Below are positions 17,744 to 40,162 of a stretch of 64,000 nt of DNA, piece after piece; position 1 is the stretch's first letter, and each line of letters starts with the position of its first letter. This DNA is from a bacterium (GTDB taxonomy: Bacteria > Electryoneota > RPQS01). Position numbers and translations under genes: made by a program. The stretch spans positions 634,219 to 698,218 of the forward strand of contig JAHDVH010000002.1 of assembly GCA_023382385.1 (NCBI GenBank), read 5' to 3'. The notes beneath the pieces are model-generated. The model was not told the DNA's origin. It did no database searches and was given only the letters and a program-made list of their open reading frames with translations.

Positions 17744-19180
17744 TCACATACTTGTCCGCACAATCGGTCCGAGCGAAAGTCTGCGTTCAAGATCGTTCAA
17801 AGCGGCAACCGTTTGCACATCTTCTGTCTTGCGCTGTTCGGCAATCGTATCGCGCGCATGAATGACAGTGGAATGATCGCGTCCGCCGAATAGTCCGCCG
17901 ATGGCCTTCAAAGAATGTTCCGTCAATTCCGTCATTAGATACATGGCAATCATCCGCGCGTAAGCAATTTCCTTCTTACGCGATTTGCCGCGCAGCGCAT
18001 CCTGACTGACTCGGAAATAATCGGCAACAGATTGTTGGATCAGCTCAACCGGTGGACGGCCCATGCGGCGACCGGTTTTTTCCTGAATCACGCGCTGCGC
18101 AAGTTCGAGTGTCGCAGGCACGCGGCCGAATTGACAATGCGCCACCAGAGCCGCGAACGCACCCTCCAACTCACGAACATTGCTGGTGATGTGAGTAGAC
18201 AACAGATCCGCCACAGCTAAAGGCAACGGGAAATTCTCGAACTTCGCGCGATCCTGTAGAATCGCCAGGCGCGTTTCATACGTCGGCGGGTTGACGTTCG
18301 TGACCAGCCCGGAATCAAAGCGCGAAATCAACCGTTCATCAAATCCCGCCAGTTCATGCACGGGACGATCCGACGTCATCACAATCCGCCTGCCGCTCTG
18401 ATGCAGCGCATTAAAGGCGTGGAAAAATTCAGTCTGCGTGCGCTCTTTCGTGGCGAAGAACTGAATGTCATCCACCAATAAGAGATCCACGTTGCGGTAT
18501 TTATCCGTGAAGTCCGAGCTTTGCTGCAGCCGCACAGATTGAATAAAATCCTGAGTGAAACGCTCGGAAGAGACATAACGAACGCGGATACCGTCATTGC
18601 GTCGCACTGACAATACGCGGTTGCCGATCGACTGCAGCAGATGAGTCTTGCCCAACCCAGTGCCGCCGTAGATCAACAGCGGATTCCAGAGAGTAGGTCT
18701 TGATAAATCAGAAATAGCAAGACAGGCCGCGCGCGCAAAACTGTTGCAATCGCCTTCCACAAAGTTCTCGAAGCGATAGCGGGGATTGAGATTGGCCTCT
18801 GCGGCGGCTTCGGCTACGCTGGCACTGCGGGAATGATGGCCATTGGCTTCCGCAACGGGAGCCTCTGGAGATGCGGGCGGCGTGAAGCGCAGATTGCGTT
18901 GACGCGGAATTTCACCCGAACCCTGCACGCGCACGCGCACGCGAATTGGTTCGCCGGTATTTTCCAGCGCAACAGCTTCCAAGCCCGGCACGAAGTGTTC
19001 TTCGACGAACTCACGATGAAACTTCGAAGGGGCTAACAATGTCAGCACGCGATCTTCGAGTTTCTCAGGCTTCAGCGTTTCGATCCACGAACTAAAGGTA
19101 GTTTCCGAAACGGACGGCGCGACCGCAGACACAATGGACGCCCAGAGTTCGATTGCTGCCGGAGAATCTACAGAGGCCAT
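17744..19180 (-). CDS. dnaA: Chromosomal replication initiator DnaA
   Basis: This 478-residue protein is the origin-binding AAA+ ATPase. Domain I is recognisable (ELWASIVSAVAPSVSETTF). An Ala/His-rich linker near residues 105-130 is domain II. Walker A is GGTGLGKTHLLQSIGN and Walker B is LLLVDDIQFFATKERT. The DNA-binding signature of domain IV is GGRDHSTVIHARDTI. It has no strong Shine-Dalgarno before ATG 19180. A near-consensus promoter lies about 100 nt upstream. Confidence 0.98.
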   Translation of the reverse strand: MASVDSPAAIELWASIVSAVAPSVSETTFSSWIETLKPEKLEDRVLTLLAPSKFHREFVEEHFVPGLEAVALENTGEPIRVRVRVQGSGEIPRQRNLRFTPPASPEAPVAEANGHHSRSASVAEAAAEANLNPRYRFENFVEGDCNSFARAACLAISDLSRPTLWNPLLIYGGTGLGKTHLLQSIGNRVLSVRRNDGIRVRYVSSERFTQDFIQSVRLQQSSDFTDKYRNVDLLLVDDIQFFATKERTQTEFFHAFNALHQSGRRIVMTSDRPVHELAGFDERLISRFDSGLVTNVNPPTYETRLAILQDRAKFENFPLPLAVADLLSTHITSNVRELEGAFAALVAHCQFGRVPATLELAQRVIQEKTGRRMGRPPVELIQQSVADYFRVSQDALRGKSRKKEIAYARMIAMYLMTELTEHSLKAIGGLFGGRDHSTVIHARDTIAEQRKTEDVQTVAALNDLERRLSLGPIVRTSM

Positions 19181-22304: not shown

Positions 22305-22627
22305 TCAAAGAAGTCGCCAGACATTGGTTTTGCCCTCCGGCCTGGCCATGTCCAAATTAATGGGGTAGCCTTAGTGCCTGGCGTTTCAACTATTACACGC
22401 GACGAATGTTAGAAAAGTTTCCGCAGAGAATTGCTTCTTGAATTGTGTTGAGGTTTCGCGCAGTTCGAGAGAAATTGTTGGAGCATCCGCAAGTCGTGGC
22501 GAACCGTTTTACGCATAGTAATCCTGAACCCGCCGCGGGCGAAAGACCAACCGAATACCATACGAAAAGATAACGCCGCTCGACTCAGACTATTTCAAAG
22601 AATAATACTGAAACACGACACCACCCC
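22305..22627. other. Gene-free spacer with a possible structured RNA
   Basis: No gene is supported between yidC and the next CDS. The segment 22315-22383 is closed by CGCCAG/CTGGCG and holds further short complementary runs (GGCCTGGCC), so it could fold as a small RNA or leader. The rest shows no recognisable riboswitch. Confidence 0.25.
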
Positions 22628-23794
22628 ATGACCACCGACGAGATCAAAAACGACACACCGGACGAAACACCGGAACCGAAACCCCTTGAAGATGCGGCTC
22701 CGGAACAGCCGGAAGCGGATGCTCCGGCAGAGGAAACCGTAGAGCTGACACCAGAACAGCCCGCCGCAGAACCTGCTTCCGCTGAGCAGCCCGCGCCGCC
22801 CGTCAAAGCGCTCGACGAAAAAGACGCGCAGGCCGCCGCCGCCAACCTTGCAACGCTCGACGCGGAGATTCGCGCCCTCGACAGTGGACACCTGCTCGAA
22901 GGCAAGCGCCAGTATAAAGAATTTTTCGAGCACGCCAAAGAGGTCGGCAATCTCTTCAGAACGCTGAAGCCGCTGCCGCACGAGGAACGCGAACGTCTGT
23001 GGATGGAATTCTCGACGCTCTGCGACGACGTGCGCGCGCAACAGAATATCGAACGCGAAGAGCTGAAACTCGCGTCGCTCGAACTGCGCGGCAAACTCGA
23101 AGCACGGCTGGTCGAGCTGCAGCAGGCGGGACCAAACGCGAAATACGCGGACGACTTTAATGCGCTGGCCGACAAGATGAAAGCCGTGCGCGAAGAGTTC
23201 ACCGGCACAAAGGAACAGCCGGCGCAGCTGACGCCGAAGGACCGCGAAGCGCTCTGGAAACTCTGGAAGAGCACCGACGACTCCATCTGGTCGCATCGCA
23301 AGGCGATCCGCGAGGAGAACTACGCCGACGGAAAAGAGCACATCGCGATCTGCACGCAGCTTGCGACAGAAGGCGATCCCTTCGATTGTCATAAGAAGAT
23401 CAAAGAGCTTCGTCCGTGGCAGCGCAATGCCGAGCTGTCGCGCGAACAGCGCAACGAAATTCGCAAAGCACTCGACGCGGCCTGGGATGCCGCCGCGGCG
23501 CGCATCGAGGCCAACCGCACTGAACGCAAACAGCAGTTTGAAAATTGGAAGGATCGCACCTCCGGTCTGTTGGAAGAGTGGGAGCAGAAACTTGAGAAGA
23601 TGCGCGACTTCCGCGTGCGGCTGGAAGAGCAGATTGCGCGCTTGAACGAGATGGAAACCAACGCGCGCACCGATGAGTTTGCCGATCAGGTCGCGGGCTG
23701 GCGCACTGAAAAGGAAGACAAGCTCGCCGACGTGGACAAGAGCATCGCCGCACTCGTTGAGAAGATAGACTCGGTCAAAAAAAGATTGAAGTAG
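22628..23794 (+). CDS. Acidic coiled-coil protein, DUF349-like
   Basis: This 388-residue protein has a disordered Glu/Pro/Ala-rich N-terminus to about residue 60, then long charged helices. A tryptophan-containing pattern ([20 protein letters not shown]) resembles DUF349 repeats, helical units found in bacterial proteins of unknown function. No membrane segment or signal is present. It is followed after 8 nt by the DUF262 gene, and that gene overlaps mnmE. The function is unknown and the DUF349 link is only by motif. Confidence 0.7.
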
Positions 23795-23802
23795 GGGAGA
23801 AA

Positions 23803-25596
23803 ATGGCACAGAAATACTCTGTCACCCAACAACCAATCGAAACATTGCTTTCGTGGGTAAAGTCCGGCGAGATAGCAATTCCCGAGATTCAAAGACCCTT
23901 TGTTTGGAATAAGACGAAAGTTCGCGACCTTTTGGATTCATTGCTCTGTGGCTTTCCTATAGGATACCTGATAGCGTGGCGCAACCCAACGGTTCGATTG
24001 AAAGACGGAAGTCAATCGGCAGGAAAGCGAATTCTGATTGACGGTCAACAGCGGGTAACCGCGCTGATGGCGTCGTTGCTTGGACGCCAAGTTGTTACCA
24101 GTGAGTACGAAACGGAACGCATTCAAATAGCATATCATCCAGTAACCCGCCGCTTTGAGGTGGCGAATTCGGCAATCAAGAAAGATAAGAGTTGGTTGCC
24201 GGACATCTCCGAACTTTTCGCGCAAGGCGCCGGTTTCTTCTCCTTGGTGCAAGATTACTGTGATAAAAACCCCGGGGTTTCGAAGGATGAAATATTTCAA
24301 AGCTTTGAAGCCCTAAAACAGATTACAAACAACACGGTAGGACTGATAGAACTGGAAGCAGATCTTGGAATTGAGACAGTAACAGAGATCTTTATACGAG
24401 TCAATTCTTCGGGGACAGAGCTGAGTCAAGCAGACTTCGCCATGTCCAAAATCGCATCGACAGAACAATATGATGGACACGTGCTTAGAAAGGCTATAGA
24501 CTACTTCTGCCACTTGGCGGTCGCCCCCGAGTTCTACGACACTATTTCTAATAAGGACAAGGAATTTTCTAGATCAGATTATTTTCAGAAAATGTCTTGG
24601 CTGAAGCAAGAGAACGACGACATATACGATCCGTCGTACACGGATATGTTGCGAGTCGCCTACACCTCAGAGTTTGGCAGGGGTCGGCTGGAGGATTTGG
24701 TCGCTCTTTTGTCGGGCCGTAATTTCGAGACGAAGCTCTACGAAGAGTCAGTAGCTGAAGAATCGTTCTCGCGCTTGAGAGCTGGGATTCTCAATTTCAT
24801 GAACGAGACGAATTTTAAGCGGTTTTCAATGATCATAAGGTCGGCTGGCTTTGTGGATTCGTCACAAATAGGGTCACAAAATGCGTTAAATGTTTCTTAT
24901 ATACTTTACTTGTTGCTTCGGAAGCGTAATGTGCCTGCGCCAGAAATCGAGTCATTCGTTCGCCAATGGTTTGTGATGTCAATGCTGACGCAAAGGTATT
25001 CGGGTTCACCGGAAAGCACAATAGATTTTGACGTAAGGCAGTTTGAGCAACAGGGATTTCACAAGTACATCGAGGGAGTTATGGCGGGAACCCTGTCGGA
25101 CTCATACTGGGCAATTCAACTACCGCAAGAGATGGCTACGTCATCGTCAACGTCACCATCCTTTCGCGTCTTTCGCGCCGCACAAATCAAATTCAATGAC
25201 AAGGGCTTCTTGTCAAGGGACATTTCGGTTCTTGACCTGATTCTTAATCGTGGTGATTATCACCACATTTTTCCAAAGAACTACTTGAAGAAGGATGGGC
25301 ACCCAAAGTCAGCCTACAACCAGATAGCGAATTATGCGGTAACCCAGAGCGAGATAAACATTGCGATTGGCGACGCGCCGCCCAATAAGTACTTCAAGGC
25401 TTTATTCGACTCGTGTGCCAACGGTAAGGCTGCATTTGGTGCAATTAACGACCTTGATGAACTACGGGAAAACCTATCAACCCACTGCGTTCCGGAAGAA
25501 ATCGTGGAAATGGATTCACTTCGTTATAGTGAATTCCTCGATTATCGGCGAGCTGCTATGGCAGAGAAGATGCGTCGGTACTTCCACAAACTGTGA
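23803..25596 (+). CDS. DUF262-HNH (GmrSD-like) protein, putative defence nuclease
   Basis: This 597-residue protein has an N-terminal DUF262 domain: [19 protein letters not shown] (residues 26-44), FPIGYLIAW, and the nucleotide-handling motif [10 protein letters not shown] (80-89). The C-terminus has an HNH-type motif, [12 protein letters not shown] (about 485-496), with [14 protein letters not shown] after it. The two are the halves of GmrSD-type type IV restriction enzymes that cut modified phage DNA; defence is therefore inferred. The DNA is clearly more AT-rich than its neighbours. GGGGAG precedes the ATG, and its stop overlaps the mnmE start (GTGA). Confidence 0.82.
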
Positions 25597-35702: not shown

Positions 35703-35718
35703 TGTTTCACGTGGAGCA
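35703..35718. promoter_or_regulatory. parS-like site 1 (imperfect)
   Basis: TGTTTCACGTGGAGCA differs from TGTTTCACGTGAAACA at two positions, and from the natural variant TGTTTCACGTGGAACA at one. It lies in the spacer after DUF4396. Confidence 0.65.
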
Positions 35719-35767
35719 ATTTCCGCGCGAAGCAGAGTCGTTCGCGTACACAAATACCAATTGCGTC

Positions 35768-35793
35768 GTCATCCTGAACGAAGTGAAGGATCC
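35768..35793. repeat. Dispersed repeat, copy A (GTCATCCTGAACG...GTGAAGGATC family)
   Basis: GTCATCCTGAACG is followed by AAGTGAAGGATCC. The same unit occurs at 36302-36327 and 36388-36413, and a degenerate reversed copy lies at 62436-62468. It is a short intergenic repeat. Confidence 0.7.
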
Positions 35794-35842
35794 CTCCGGT
35801 GAGCGTCAAGACAAACCGAGCATTTAGAGTCTCTTAAAACCT

Positions 35843-36217
35843 ATGAGCATCCATCAGGACATCCTTGATTACTACGTTGAACGTCTCGCGTTGCTCGGCA
35901 AGGTGAGTGTTAAGAAGATGTTCGGTGGCGCGGGCTTCTATTTGAACGGACGCGTCTTTGCGATCACCGACGGCGATACCGTCTACTTGAAAAGCGATGA
36001 AGAGAACCGCGCACGCTTCGAATCGCGCAGGATGAAACAATTCGTTCCGTTCGAAGACAAGCCCGAGCAGAAGATGAATTACTACTCATTGTCTTCTGAG
36101 GATTTGGAAGACGACGATGCGCTTCGTGAGTTAGGCAGACTCGCCATCGAAGCAGCGGCTCGCGCCGCGCACAAAAAGCAACCTGCCAAAACAAAGCGAG
36201 TGAAATCAAAACCGTAG
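35843..36217 (+). CDS. TfoX N-terminal domain protein
   Basis: The 124-residue protein matches the TfoX/Sxy N-terminal domain (VSVKKMFGGAGFYLNGRVFA and YLKSDEENRARF). The C-terminus is a basic Ala/Lys tail. TfoX domains regulate competence in Gammaproteobacteria, but stand-alone versions of this size are common and uncharacterised. It starts at ATG 35843 with no strong ribosome site. Confidence 0.85.
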   Translation: MSIHQDILDYYVERLALLGKVSVKKMFGGAGFYLNGRVFAITDGDTVYLKSDEENRARFESRRMKQFVPFEDKPEQKMNYYSLSSEDLEDDDALRELGRLAIEAAARAAHKKQPAKTKRVKSKP

Positions 36218-36301
36218 GGGCGCGGCATACGCTCCGCCCGCAAAATCCCTGAGCCAGCACAGCACGCTCTGCGGCACGAGAACACAATCGCCTGTCGTGT
36301 C

Positions 36302-36327
36302 GTCATCCTGAACGCAGTAAAGGATCT
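36302..36327. repeat. Dispersed repeat, copy B
   Basis: GTCATCCTGAACGCAGTAA is followed by AGGATCT, the same family as copy A with one extra substitution. Confidence 0.7.
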
Positions 36328-36387
36328 CGCTGCATCGTGACAACCCGCAGCGACTGTCAGTTCGAGTCCACGAATTCCAGGCCTGTC

Positions 36388-36413
36388 GTCATCCTGAACG
36401 CGGTGAAGGATCT
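36388..36413. repeat. Dispersed repeat, copy C
   Basis: GTCATCCTGAACGCGGTGAA is followed by GGATCT, 60 nt after the end of copy B in the same orientation. Confidence 0.7.
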
Positions 36414-36444
36414 CTTTCTATGACACGCAGCTGAGCGATTTTAT

Positions 36445-37167
36445 CTACCTGAAAGGAGACAACGTTGTGATGTCAACCCTTCCCTGATCGCCGTATGCAA
36501 TCAATTTGCCGGGCTCGGCGCCTTCAAAGTCGACGGTGAAGTTCAGCCGCTCTTTCCCTGACGACGGATTCTGTATAAAGGCATCGAAGTTGTCGAAAGT
36601 ACCTTTCGTACTCTGCCAAACCGCACGCACTCCGCCGATACTATCCAGCCCAATCAAAACGAGCTTGAAACTCTTGGCATTGGCTATCATGGAGTTGTAC
36701 TTCTCTTTATCCAGCGAGATCCAGTAGAAGTTTTTTCCGGAGCAAGGATTCGCAGCATGAATCCAGACGATATCGCCGTCGCGTACAAAATAGGCGATAC
36801 CGCCGAGCCACCGCAGTGACCACCCCTCAGCGAAAAACTGCGATAGGTGAGTTTCTATGAGCTGCGACTTGAGGTTCTTCCCAATCTTGGTGCTTCCGGT
36901 GCCCTGACGCGCTTCTCCCATCACGTGCCGTATTGCTGACGGAGATGGGTCTCTGTTCAGACTAATCCGAGGCTCTTGAGCCGTTTGTGCCTTTCCTGCG
37001 GGGCGAGTTCGGTCAACTGCACCAGAAGACGGGGAATAGCCTAAAGACTCGCTGCCTGCAATTTCCTGTAGTATTTTGCGGATCATCGCCCCCGGCGTAA
37101 GCCCAGTCAACTTCGAGGCAACCAGCAGCAGAACATAGGAATCATCATCTAACTCTAGTGTTTTCAA
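36445..37167 (-). CDS. Unknown protein with SeqA-N-like ribbon-helix N-terminus
   Basis: This 240-residue protein is on the minus strand inside a plus-strand region. I place the start at TTG 37167 because GAGGAG lies 7 nt upstream; a TTG 15 nt earlier would itself overlap that site. The first 35 residues (MKTLELDDDSYVLLLVASKL, then LTPGAMIRKILQEIAG) resemble the N-terminal oligomerisation domain of SeqA. The middle is a flexible Ser/Pro/Arg linker. The C-terminal half (FAEGWSLRWLGGIAYFVRDG; YWISLDKEKYNSMIANA) is unrecognised. A DNA-binding or restriction-like role is possible but unproven. The DNA is more AT-rich than its neighbours. Confidence 0.65.
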   Translation of the reverse strand: MKTLELDDDSYVLLLVASKLTGLTPGAMIRKILQEIAGSESLGYSPSSGAVDRTRPAGKAQTAQEPRISLNRDPSPSAIRHVMGEARQGTGSTKIGKNLKSQLIETHLSQFFAEGWSLRWLGGIAYFVRDGDIVWIHAANPCSGKNFYWISLDKEKYNSMIANAKSFKLVLIGLDSIGGVRAVWQSTKGTFDNFDAFIQNPSSGKERLNFTVDFEGAEPGKLIAYGDQGRVDITTLSPFR

Positions 37168-37541
37168 TTCGAATCTCCTCAAGATGTTAGCTGTTTCTAT
37201 TAACCAAACCTAACGCAGATAATTTACTACGATTTTCTGTGAAACACAAACTACGACAGTTAGCATTCATATATGTCCAAAGATAGATTTATTAGAATTT
37301 TACGCAAACAGAGTTCTGTGTCAGAAGTTTATTCCTGTAGTTTCTGAGGTTCATGCCTCTCGGTACTTGACTTTTACTACAAAGCTCATTCGGGTCGTTC
37401 TTCTGCTGGAGAATGCCCCCACCAGTCATCAACGCACCCTCTGTGCTCGATTTAGCAAGAAACAAGAGCAACTTAAGACTCTGCTCATAAGTTCACAAAC
37501 AGAGCATAAACAACTCATTGTGCTCGACTTAGCAAGGAAGA
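37168..37541. other. AT-rich spacer before mnmG with a near-perfect 21-bp direct repeat
   Basis: No gene is seen in this 374-nt stretch apart from a 25-codon reading frame at about 37413. The segment TGTGCTCGA(T/C)TTAGCAAG(A/G)AA occurs at 37442-37462 and 37519-37539. The second copy supplies the mnmG ribosome site (AAGGAAG). Confidence 0.55.
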
Positions 37542-39413
37542 ATGCCCATTTCACATATATATGATGTCGTCGTGATCGGCGGCGGACACGCGGGAATCGA
37601 AGCCGCACTGGCAACCGCGCGCATGGGCTTTCGCACCTGTCTGGTCACGCAGAATCTTCAGACTATCGGCCAAATGTCCTGCAATCCGGCCATCGGCGGG
37701 CTTGCTAAAGGCCAATTAGTCAAGGAGATAGACGCACTCGGCGGCGAAATGGGCAGGCTGGCAGATTTGGCTACCGTGCAGTTCCGCATGCTGAACCGCT
37801 CCAAAGGCCCAGCCGTCTGGTCACCGCGCGCCCAGTGCGATCGCGGTCTGTATGCTCGTGAAGCACGCAAGACTTTGGAGGGCCAGCGGAATCTTGATCT
37901 CAAACAGAATACAATCATAGATTTCGAGACAGCCGGAGGTCGGCTGACGGCCTGTATCGCACAGAGCGGCCAGCGCATAGAGTGCCGTGCCGCCGTGCTT
38001 TGCGCCGGAACATTCCTGAACGGCCTGTTGCACATGGGCGATTGGCAGCTCCCGGGCGGCAGAATCGGTGAGGCTCCCGCCTTGGTCCTTACCGAAATGC
38101 TTATGAAACATGGGTTTGAAGTCGGTCGTTTGAAAACTGGCACTCCACCGCGCCTTGACGGTCGTACTATTGATTACACCCGTTGCGAGTATCAGCCCGG
38201 CGATGGCCGCATTGTTCCATTCTCGGTGCGTTCTGGAAAGTCCGTCACCGACCAACTCGCGTGCCATCTAACCTACACAAATACAAAGACTCACGAAATT
38301 CTGCGCAACGGGCTGCACAAGTCCCCGCTGTTTGCTGGCCGGATTCAGGGGCGCGGTCCGCGCTATTGCCCGTCTATTGAAGACAAGATCGTCCGCTTCG
38401 CCGATAAGGACAGGCATCAGATTTTCCTTGAACCTGAAGGCTGGGACACGTTTGAAGTCTACATGAACGGCTTCAGCTCAAGCCTTCCAGAAGAGATTCA
38501 ATTTGAAGCACTTAGAACTGTTCCCGGGCTTGAACAGACCGAAATGATGCGTCCGGGTTATGCCGTTGAGTACGACTTCTTCCCTGCTCATCAGCTTCAT
38601 TACTCTTTGGAAACCAAGGTGATAGACGGCCTGTTCTTCGCTGGGCAGATCAACGGCACCACCGGCTACGAGGAGGCAGCCGCGCAGGGCTTGATTGCCG
38701 GAATAAACGCTGGTCAGAAACTGAACGGCGGACAGTCTCTGACGCTGGGAAGAGATCAAGCCTATATCGGCGTGCTGATTGACGACCTCATCACGAAAAC
38801 GCCCGACGAACCCTATCGGATGTTCACTTCCCGCGCCGAGCACCGTCTGATTCTGCGTCAGGACAATGCAGACCTGCGTTTAACAGATATTGGCCGCAAA
38901 CTTGGATTGGTATCGGATCGGCAATACGATTGCTATTTAGAAAAGAAACAAAAGCTTACTGAGCTGACCGCCCTCCTGCACGAAACCCGTCTCGAAGAGC
39001 TGGCTGATTCCGGCTTGCTCTCCGATCCGAAACTGAAAGGCAGCCGCTTCGCAGCCATCTTGAAGCGTCCTGAAGCGGAACTCGGTTCACTACTTAGGGA
39101 TAGTTCACAGCTTGCCGGAAAGGTTGCGGATGATCTCGACGAAGACCTGATTGCGGCTGTTGAAATGGATGTAAAATATGAAGGTTACATCCAGCGCGAG
39201 CGCTTCCGGGCGGAGCAGGTGCGGCACTGGGAAGAGGTGCGGCTCCCTGAGAATATGGACCTTTGGGCGGTGCACTCGATGTCTCACGAGGCCCGCGAGA
39301 AGATCAAGCACTTCAAACCCAAGACCTTGGGCCAAGCCGGGCGGATTTCCGGTGTGCGCCCTTCAGACACTTCGGCACTGCTGATCCACCTCAAGAGAAC
39401 GGGCCACTTGTAA
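37542..39413 (+). CDS. mnmG: tRNA uridine-5-carboxymethylaminomethyl modification enzyme MnmG
   Basis: The 623-residue protein is the FAD-dependent partner of MnmE. It begins with a dinucleotide-binding motif (YDVVVIGGGHAGIEAALA), then QMSCNPAIGGLAKGQLVKEI and GTFLNGLLHMGDWQLPGGR. The middle has LKTGTPPRLDGRTID and GTTGYEEAAAQGLIAGINA. The C-terminal DLWAVHSMSHEAREKIKHF with RISGVRPSDTSALL is the tRNA/MnmE-binding region. Length is typical. AGGA lies 3 nt upstream of ATG. Confidence 0.97.
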   Translation: MPISHIYDVVVIGGGHAGIEAALATARMGFRTCLVTQNLQTIGQMSCNPAIGGLAKGQLVKEIDALGGEMGRLADLATVQFRMLNRSKGPAVWSPRAQCDRGLYAREARKTLEGQRNLDLKQNTIIDFETAGGRLTACIAQSGQRIECRAAVLCAGTFLNGLLHMGDWQLPGGRIGEAPALVLTEMLMKHGFEVGRLKTGTPPRLDGRTIDYTRCEYQPGDGRIVPFSVRSGKSVTDQLACHLTYTNTKTHEILRNGLHKSPLFAGRIQGRGPRYCPSIEDKIVRFADKDRHQIFLEPEGWDTFEVYMNGFSSSLPEEIQFEALRTVPGLEQTEMMRPGYAVEYDFFPAHQLHYSLETKVIDGLFFAGQINGTTGYEEAAAQGLIAGINAGQKLNGGQSLTLGRDQAYIGVLIDDLITKTPDEPYRMFTSRAEHRLILRQDNADLRLTDIGRKLGLVSDRQYDCYLEKKQKLTELTALLHETRLEELADSGLLSDPKLKGSRFAAILKRPEAELGSLLRDSSQLAGKVADDLDEDLIAAVEMDVKYEGYIQRERFRAEQVRHWEEVRLPENMDLWAVHSMSHEAREKIKHFKPKTLGQAGRISGVRPSDTSALLIHLKRTGHL

Positions 39414-39428: not shown

Positions 39429-39444
39429 TGTTTCACGTGAAACA
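39429..39444. promoter_or_regulatory. parS site 2 (perfect)
   Basis: TGTTTCACGTGAAACA is a perfect 16-bp palindrome identical to the canonical ParB binding site. It lies 15 nt after the mnmG stop codon. Confidence 0.93.
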
Positions 39445-39595: not shown

Positions 39596-40162
39596 GTGAA
39601 CCCCGATCAGCTACTGCATCTCGAGCACTACCTCACCCGCGTGGCCGAAGCAGGCATCCTGCTGGTTTCTCAGGCCGATCGGTCGCGACTGCGGGAACGA
39701 CACTTAGCTCCGTCTTTGGCGGGGCTTGAGCTGCTCCCGGCTACCGGCAGGGTTTTGGACATTGGCAGCGGCGGAGGGTTTCCGGCCATTCCGTTGGCTA
39801 TTCTAACTCCTCACTTAACATGGACTTTGGTCGAGTCGAATCAGCGGAAAGCCGCATTTCTGACTCGTGTTTCACGTGAAACAGAGCTCACACAACGGCT
39901 TACGGTGGTTTGTCAACGTGTGGAGAAACTTATCCACTCTGAAGTTGGAAGATTCGACTGCATCACAGCCCGCGCCGTGACTGAGCTGCCCCAGTTGGTT
40001 AAATGGTGTCGGCCTTTGCTGGCGCCGGAGGGCGAGCTGCTGTTCTGGAAAGGTCGGGAATGGCGGCACGAAGCCTGGCCGGAAGAACTTGGGCTTAAAT
40101 TACTCTCTGAACTCAACTTAGCCGACGGCGGCCGACTCATAAAGCTGATGATCGACAAGTGA
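39596..40162 (+). CDS. rsmG: 16S rRNA (guanine-527-N7)-methyltransferase RsmG
   Basis: The 188-residue protein has the AdoMet-binding motif GRVLDIGSGGGFPAIPLAI and the RsmG pattern TLVESNQRKAAFLTRVSRET (the parS sequence encodes part of VSRET), then FDCITARAVTELPQLVKW. It methylates G527 of 16S rRNA. The start is GTG 39596. It overlaps murQ by 4 nt (GTGA). In many bacteria parAB follow rsmG, but here they do not. Confidence 0.95.
   Translation: MNPDQLLHLEHYLTRVAEAGILLVSQADRSRLRERHLAPSLAGLELLPATGRVLDIGSGGGFPAIPLAILTPHLTWTLVESNQRKAAFLTRVSRETELTQRLTVVCQRVEKLIHSEVGRFDCITARAVTELPQLVKWCRPLLAPEGELLFWKGREWRHEAWPEELGLKLLSELNLADGGRLIKLMIDK
39868..39883. promoter_or_regulatory. parS site 3 (perfect, inside rsmG)
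   Basis: TGTTTCACGTGAAACA occurs inside rsmG, where it encodes the conserved VSRET residues. The dual role (coding and ParB binding) is known in other bacteria. Confidence 0.93.

Follow-up and report, generated by a model that had tools for sequence, protein, structure and literature searches.

An orphan gene of the tfoX-mnmG gap in an Electryoneota genome: a probable RHH/SeqA_N-like head and a possible restriction-type fold

SeqA of E. coli is built of an N-terminal SeqA_N module (PF17206) and a C-terminal domain for hemimethylated GATC (PF03925), and SeqA_N-like heads are also found together with restriction-associated domains in Actinomycetota (Rhodococcus, Streptomyces, Micromonospora), in Chloroflexota and in one further genome. 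Eight SeqA_N-like proteins, a chosen part of those retrieved, were scanned: four carry RAMA (L048, L050, L051 and L059), two Mrr_N (L056 and L060) and one HARE-HTH (L043), and the eighth has no credible C-terminal match. Mrr is a restriction enzyme, and the Pfam descriptions of both RAMA and HARE-HTH name restriction enzymes. RAMA has been called a reader of modified bases (PMC12839542). No description of the pairing of a SeqA_N-like head with a restriction-associated domain was recognised in the literature search, and SeqA goes unmentioned in the available portions of PMC10853773 and PMC12839542. The other systems of reference are the PD-(D/E)XK nucleases, whose canonical site combines a helix-borne Glu with an Asp that opens the second strand and with a (D/E)xK motif, and among which the BisI-family domains Eco15I and NhoI cut methylated DNA using QxK motifs (PMC11347163).

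The gene considered here lies in a window of 64,000 nucleotides (the whole stretch of DNA analysed) and occupies positions 36445-37167 of the minus strand; the first-pass annotation had placed it correctly on the opposite strand between the TfoX gene and mnmG. The frame comprises 241 codons including the stop and encodes 240 residues; it starts with TTG and not ATG, and the leading M given earlier was right, this alternative start being read as M. A GAGGAG stretch (37175-37180, minus strand), 7 nt upstream of the TTG, is the likely ribosome-binding site. The stop-to-stop frame covers 254 codons, against a maximum of 238 in the resampled tfoX-mnmG gap (Markov-1; 0 of 1000 resamplings reach 254). 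Its codon score, 0.088 bits/codon, is the best among its own six frames and comes close to the minimum for 25 other window genes (0.082-0.491), a range and training set that leave out the listed frame 22595-23809 (minus strand), itself scoring 0.218; so low a score would fit an incomer.

None of the 38 other genomes of the phylum (39 with its own) contains a homologue at E<=0.01, and the 14 extra matches that appear at E<=1 in 13 of them (E 0.016-0.67, 10-16 bits) were taken as chance on their score. None was kept either from a sample of 386 genomes, in which two weak matches (E 0.002-0.005) were dropped as chance: the L027 match falls within a nitrilase/ATPase-like protein, and L028 has unrelated ORFs, prepilin-like and HEAT-repeat-like by reading. 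Plasmids and phages yielded no homologue by tblastn, residues 1-45 alone giving only matches at E of at least 2. The same was true of GTDB contigs (exact-peptide seeds; 84 stretches, none confirmed) and of IMG/VR viral contigs, both scans relying on peptide seeds, by which distant relatives would be missed; a search of the latter for homologues of L029, a protein described below, also found none. When GTDB contigs were scanned with SeqA_N-like proteins, 12 of 221 stretches were confirmed, one of them being L029 and none of the 12 being related to the orphan, and the sole product of the 329 genomes around G320 was a true SeqA (L052). Furthermore, none of the family libraries recognises the protein, and the PADLOC models return no family for it, whether whole or as its C-terminal domain. 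The ORF is a real, lineage-restricted accessory gene.

On its left, the gap containing the gene is bordered by a tfoX_N gene (35843-36217, plus strand; Pfam TfoX_N, 1.7e-24) and, on its right, by the upstream region (37431-37541, plus strand) of mnmG (37542-39413, plus strand; 91% identical to the copy in G001, a genome of the same genus), so named in the first-pass annotation. In four of ten mnmG loci of relatives (L017, L018, L021 and L024) the order is conserved and tfoX adjoins mnmG, and the remaining six have no tfoX match inside their 1.5 kb flank. A REP-like repeat 3' of tfoX, present here in two copies (36274-36329 and 36360-36415; together 36274-36415, plus strand), and the mnmG upstream region are common to the window, G001 and G006, with differing genes between them: G001 has a DUF3800 gene (PF12686, 9.6e-14) and the gap of G006 is without a comparable gene. 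Since the contents of the tfoX-mnmG gap (36218-37541) differ among relatives between common borders, it is a turnover slot, and the orphan looks like interchangeable cargo and not like an origin gene. The repeat occurs in ten copies in the genome (with up to 3 mismatches), three of them beside the slot, the third copy being located at 35740-35795. As for other gaps, that of G008 holds DinB-like and transposase-like ORFs (names by reading; weak Pfam matches) and that of G011 a nitroreductase-like ORF (likewise named by reading).

It had also been stated that the gene lies about 17 kb from the presumed origin and near parS sites, and a new origin-proximal factor had been proposed as a possibility. 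The positions are borne out: dnaA (17744-19180) and dnaN were confirmed by family scan where they had been estimated, dnaA about 17 kb from the orphan, and the parS consensus is matched perfectly at two sites within 3 kb of it (39429-39444 and 39868-39883) and with two mismatches at 35703-35718; at least three parS-like sites occurred in 0 of 100 shuffles. One of the two perfect matches sits inside rsmG. The proposal fares otherwise. Closeness to dnaA and to parS-like sites, as well as a pairwise Z of 8.8 between the N-terminus and a SeqA, would suit a SeqA-like or origin-specific replication factor, but this reading is highly improbable and was rejected on distribution and slot, the gene being missing from all 38 other phylum genomes searched and the slot being interchangeable. 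In addition, the SeqA C-terminal domain is absent, PF03925 giving no match in the C-terminal half (positive control: true SeqA at 4.8e-38), in agreement with the first-pass annotation, which had seen in that half something other than the GATC-binding domain. Neither does the orphan's own genome (98% complete) contain a match to the D12/Dam-type methylase PF02086, the only methylase family scanned, which is present in 4 of 14 control genomes, including E. coli. No methylase gene lies directly beside the orphan and, because of this and of the lack of any D12 methylase match in the genome, a classical restriction-modification pair is unlikely.

Residues 1-38 (37054-37167, minus strand) probably form an RHH/SeqA_N-like module. 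In the single-sequence AF2 model, two helices (8-21 and 25-38) follow a short N-terminal stretch, at low confidence (pLDDT 48-63 per ten-residue block). Among PDB entries searched with residues 1-45, SeqA-N (1xrx) comes first, aligned without gaps over 1-40 (E=0.34), and RelB next, matched over residues 4-44 (E 0.46 and 0.93). In pairwise comparisons, the N-terminus reaches a Z of 8.75 against SeqA (L041; 0 of 2000 shuffles), a best value of 9.7 against the Rhodococcus SeqA_N-like protein L050, 3.5-6.9 against six others and 0.3 against L043. The SeqA_N profile PF17206 has no match in residues 1-45 to E 10, in the whole protein to E 5 or in the scan of the own genome, the same tool finding true SeqA at 1.3e-20. 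A SeqA_N-like HMM of eight proteins, the orphan left out, gives it 4.4 bits and third place among 555 ORFs, the orphan and 1000 copies with shuffled N-terminus (best shuffled copy, 1.9 bits); two unrelated ORFs of the window score higher. A match to phrog_4113, of unknown function (E 0.0014, residues 5-35), was set aside. The SeqA-N likeness first noticed is upheld by the pairwise score and the two predicted helices, and the profile fails to support it; RHH/SeqA_N-like is the safe name because of this failure and of the about equal likeness to RelB. A fair statement is that the N-terminus is an RHH-type unit, SeqA_N- or RelB-like, a fold that is supported but not proven.

The same data bear on whether the protein could be an RHH transcription regulator or a RelB-like antitoxin, its C-terminus binding a partner or ligand. 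The match to RelB is almost as good as that to SeqA (E 0.46 vs 0.34), and the residue spacing also fits CopG-type RHH proteins. However, no toxin-like gene is found directly beside the orphan, RHH_1 is unmatched in its own genome at E<=0.001, and the strand residues which by our own reading point outward (T3, E5 and D7) include two acids, poor for ribbon contact with DNA, all of which leaves this alternative unlikely. A comparison set of RHH proteins was also sought among relatives, with none obtained from 13 genomes.

The head is followed by a linker, residues 39-93 (36889-37053, minus strand), predicted to be mostly unstructured (pLDDT 23-29 per ten-residue block over residues 41-100). Another orphan protein of the phylum, from isolate MAG26 (L029, 1051-1602, minus strand; identical with L053), has 183 residues, with SeqA_N above the Pfam cut-off, then a linker and an unrecognised C-terminus lacking [DE]xK; over its first 50 residues it also matches NF047386 (SepA family; 5.2e-5), well short of the cut-off of that model. 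By eye, a 'YWxxL(D/E)K' stretch and a near-end 'DIT' are common to both C-termini. Shuffles gave Z values of 0.01 (local) and -0.8 (global), and L029 was dropped as a C-terminal relative.

The C-terminal domain (residues 94-240; 36448-36888, minus strand) has no credible family match in the libraries, the best one, PF22424 (E 0.2), having been set aside, as was a match of the orphan to Avr3a (E 0.34-0.47). The single-sequence AF2 model of residues 93-240 has a mean pLDDT of 53.7 (51-76 per ten-residue block over model residues 11-90), and the full-length model one of 38.8. The order of elements in the former, a weak model, is helix, three strands, helix and two strands, as a PD-(D/E)XK core expects. 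With this model, 42 of the best 50 rows of a Foldseek search of the PDB belong to five enzyme families and include many near-identical chains: SPARDA (12), Holliday junction resolvase (14), HincII (13), R2 (2) and PvuII (1); the rest are splicing endonuclease (2), Wolbachia CinA/CinB (1) and five others (MepB, two HisR, 3fov and CntK). The best E value is 0.0021 and none reaches 0.001. By VIA-align, the best 50 rows, apart from 4lqe and 2qx2, consist of restriction enzymes or Holliday junction resolvases (48 rows), with a best Z of 6.0 for an Eco15I domain (119 aligned, rmsd 5.2) and for RecU (121 aligned, rmsd 4.2); none attains Z 8, below which a match may reflect merely a common arrangement, and absence of a family from this list does not rule it out. 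The listed rows are assigned to the PD-(D/E)XK fold on the strength of the enzyme names in their titles. The full-length model points likewise to this superfamily for residues 91-231 (Foldseek E no better than 0.0039, Z no higher than 5.5); the two models derive from one sequence and one network and are not independent. A BFVD fold search produced mixed weak matches. The models thus point mostly to the PD-(D/E)XK fold, in a manner that is consistent and not conclusive; like the N-terminal fold, it is supported but not proven. The low confidence of the models, the weak codon score of 0.088 and the lack of homologues would agree with fold hints that are noise, the orphan then being either an unrelated protein with a different function or a gene in decay. 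On the whole this is unlikely, as the 240-codon frame is intact with its ribosome-binding site and the fold lists agree on one superfamily in both models.

With respect to the active site, no [DE]xK occurs across all 240 residues, and [DENQ]xK is found only as N98-L-K and N163-A-K, neither of which lies on the strand expected to carry it. In the topology assigned by reading, E105 is located in a helix, and the other expected site positions correspond to G123, H137 and A139. Lacking any (D/E)xK, the protein gives no support to active cleavage; of the nuclease-type C-terminus suggested as possible in the first-pass annotation, the fold finds some support in the searches with both models, which mostly returned PD-(D/E)XK proteins, and the cleavage does not. 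D153-K-E155 is present in the orphan and leaves room for an unusual site, BamHI being an enzyme with an acid-x-acid arrangement. An active modification-dependent (type IV-like) nuclease without partner methylase, using for instance D132 and D153-x-E155 in a BamHI-like way, would accord with this stretch, with the restriction-like fold lists, which include the BisI-family Eco15I and NhoI, and with the lack of a methylase directly beside the gene. The absence of (D/E)xK, the misplaced N98-L-K and N163-A-K, and the occupation of the expected positions (by reading) by G123, H137 and A139 make it quite unlikely.

The reading preferred here, possible and held at somewhat less than even confidence, is that of an accessory, turned-over, dimerising DNA binder with a restriction fold, probably non-cleaving and defence-like, a function that we infer. 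Horizontal turnover would bring the gene into the slot as accessory cargo. The head (residues 1-38) would pair chains into a dimer or short oligomer, and about 55 flexible linker residues would give reach between it and the C-terminal domain; the latter, a restriction fold without the usual metal-binding residues, would most likely hold DNA with no cutting. Paired in this way, the protein would read or block DNA in a role of defence type, as SeqA_N-like modules precede restriction-associated domains elsewhere. The strength of these proposals falls from the head to the fold and from the fold to DNA binding, whereas the gene, its lack in the relatives searched, the slot and the missing (D/E)xK are direct observations. 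More speculatively, and with little likelihood, the orphan may be the first member seen of an undescribed family of paired DNA-modification readers or restriction proteins, joining a SeqA_N-like head to a restriction fold whose active site has been lost or has moved, and travelling as single-gene tfoX-mnmG cargo by parS.

The module seen in SeqA also heads restriction-associated domains in other phyla, which gives it the look of a pairing head of general use. Should the restriction fold be borne out, the orphan would add a catalytically silent example to that set and offer an uncomplicated system for learning how oligomerising DNA readers are built. There is also a warning in it, namely that a SeqA-like start and closeness to oriC do not amount to a replication regulator: the SeqA lead of the first-pass annotation was perceptive but reaches no further than a generic pairing module, and its origin-factor idea fails.

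Compared with SeqA of E. coli, the orphan has a similar MKT(L/I)E(L/V)DD start, gapless over 40 residues, but no SeqA_N profile match, another type of C-terminal domain and no Dam-type methylase found in its genome. It resembles the RelB antitoxin (RHH) over residues 4-44 (E 0.46), although no partner toxin gene is seen and its C-terminal domain is much longer. With the PD-(D/E)XK nucleases (SPARDA effector, Hjc, PvuII, HincII and the BisI-family NhoI and Eco15I) it may have in common the helix-three strands-helix-strand core that is predicted for it, and it differs from them in its weak scores and in lacking the D...(D/E)xK motif. L029/L053 is alike in its SeqA_N-type head, linker and unrecognised C-terminus without [DE]xK. 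Finally, although its C-terminal module matches none of the RAMA, HARE-HTH or Mrr_N families, the orphan would share with the SeqA_N-like proteins that carry them a layout of small N-terminal module, linker and restriction-associated C-terminal module.
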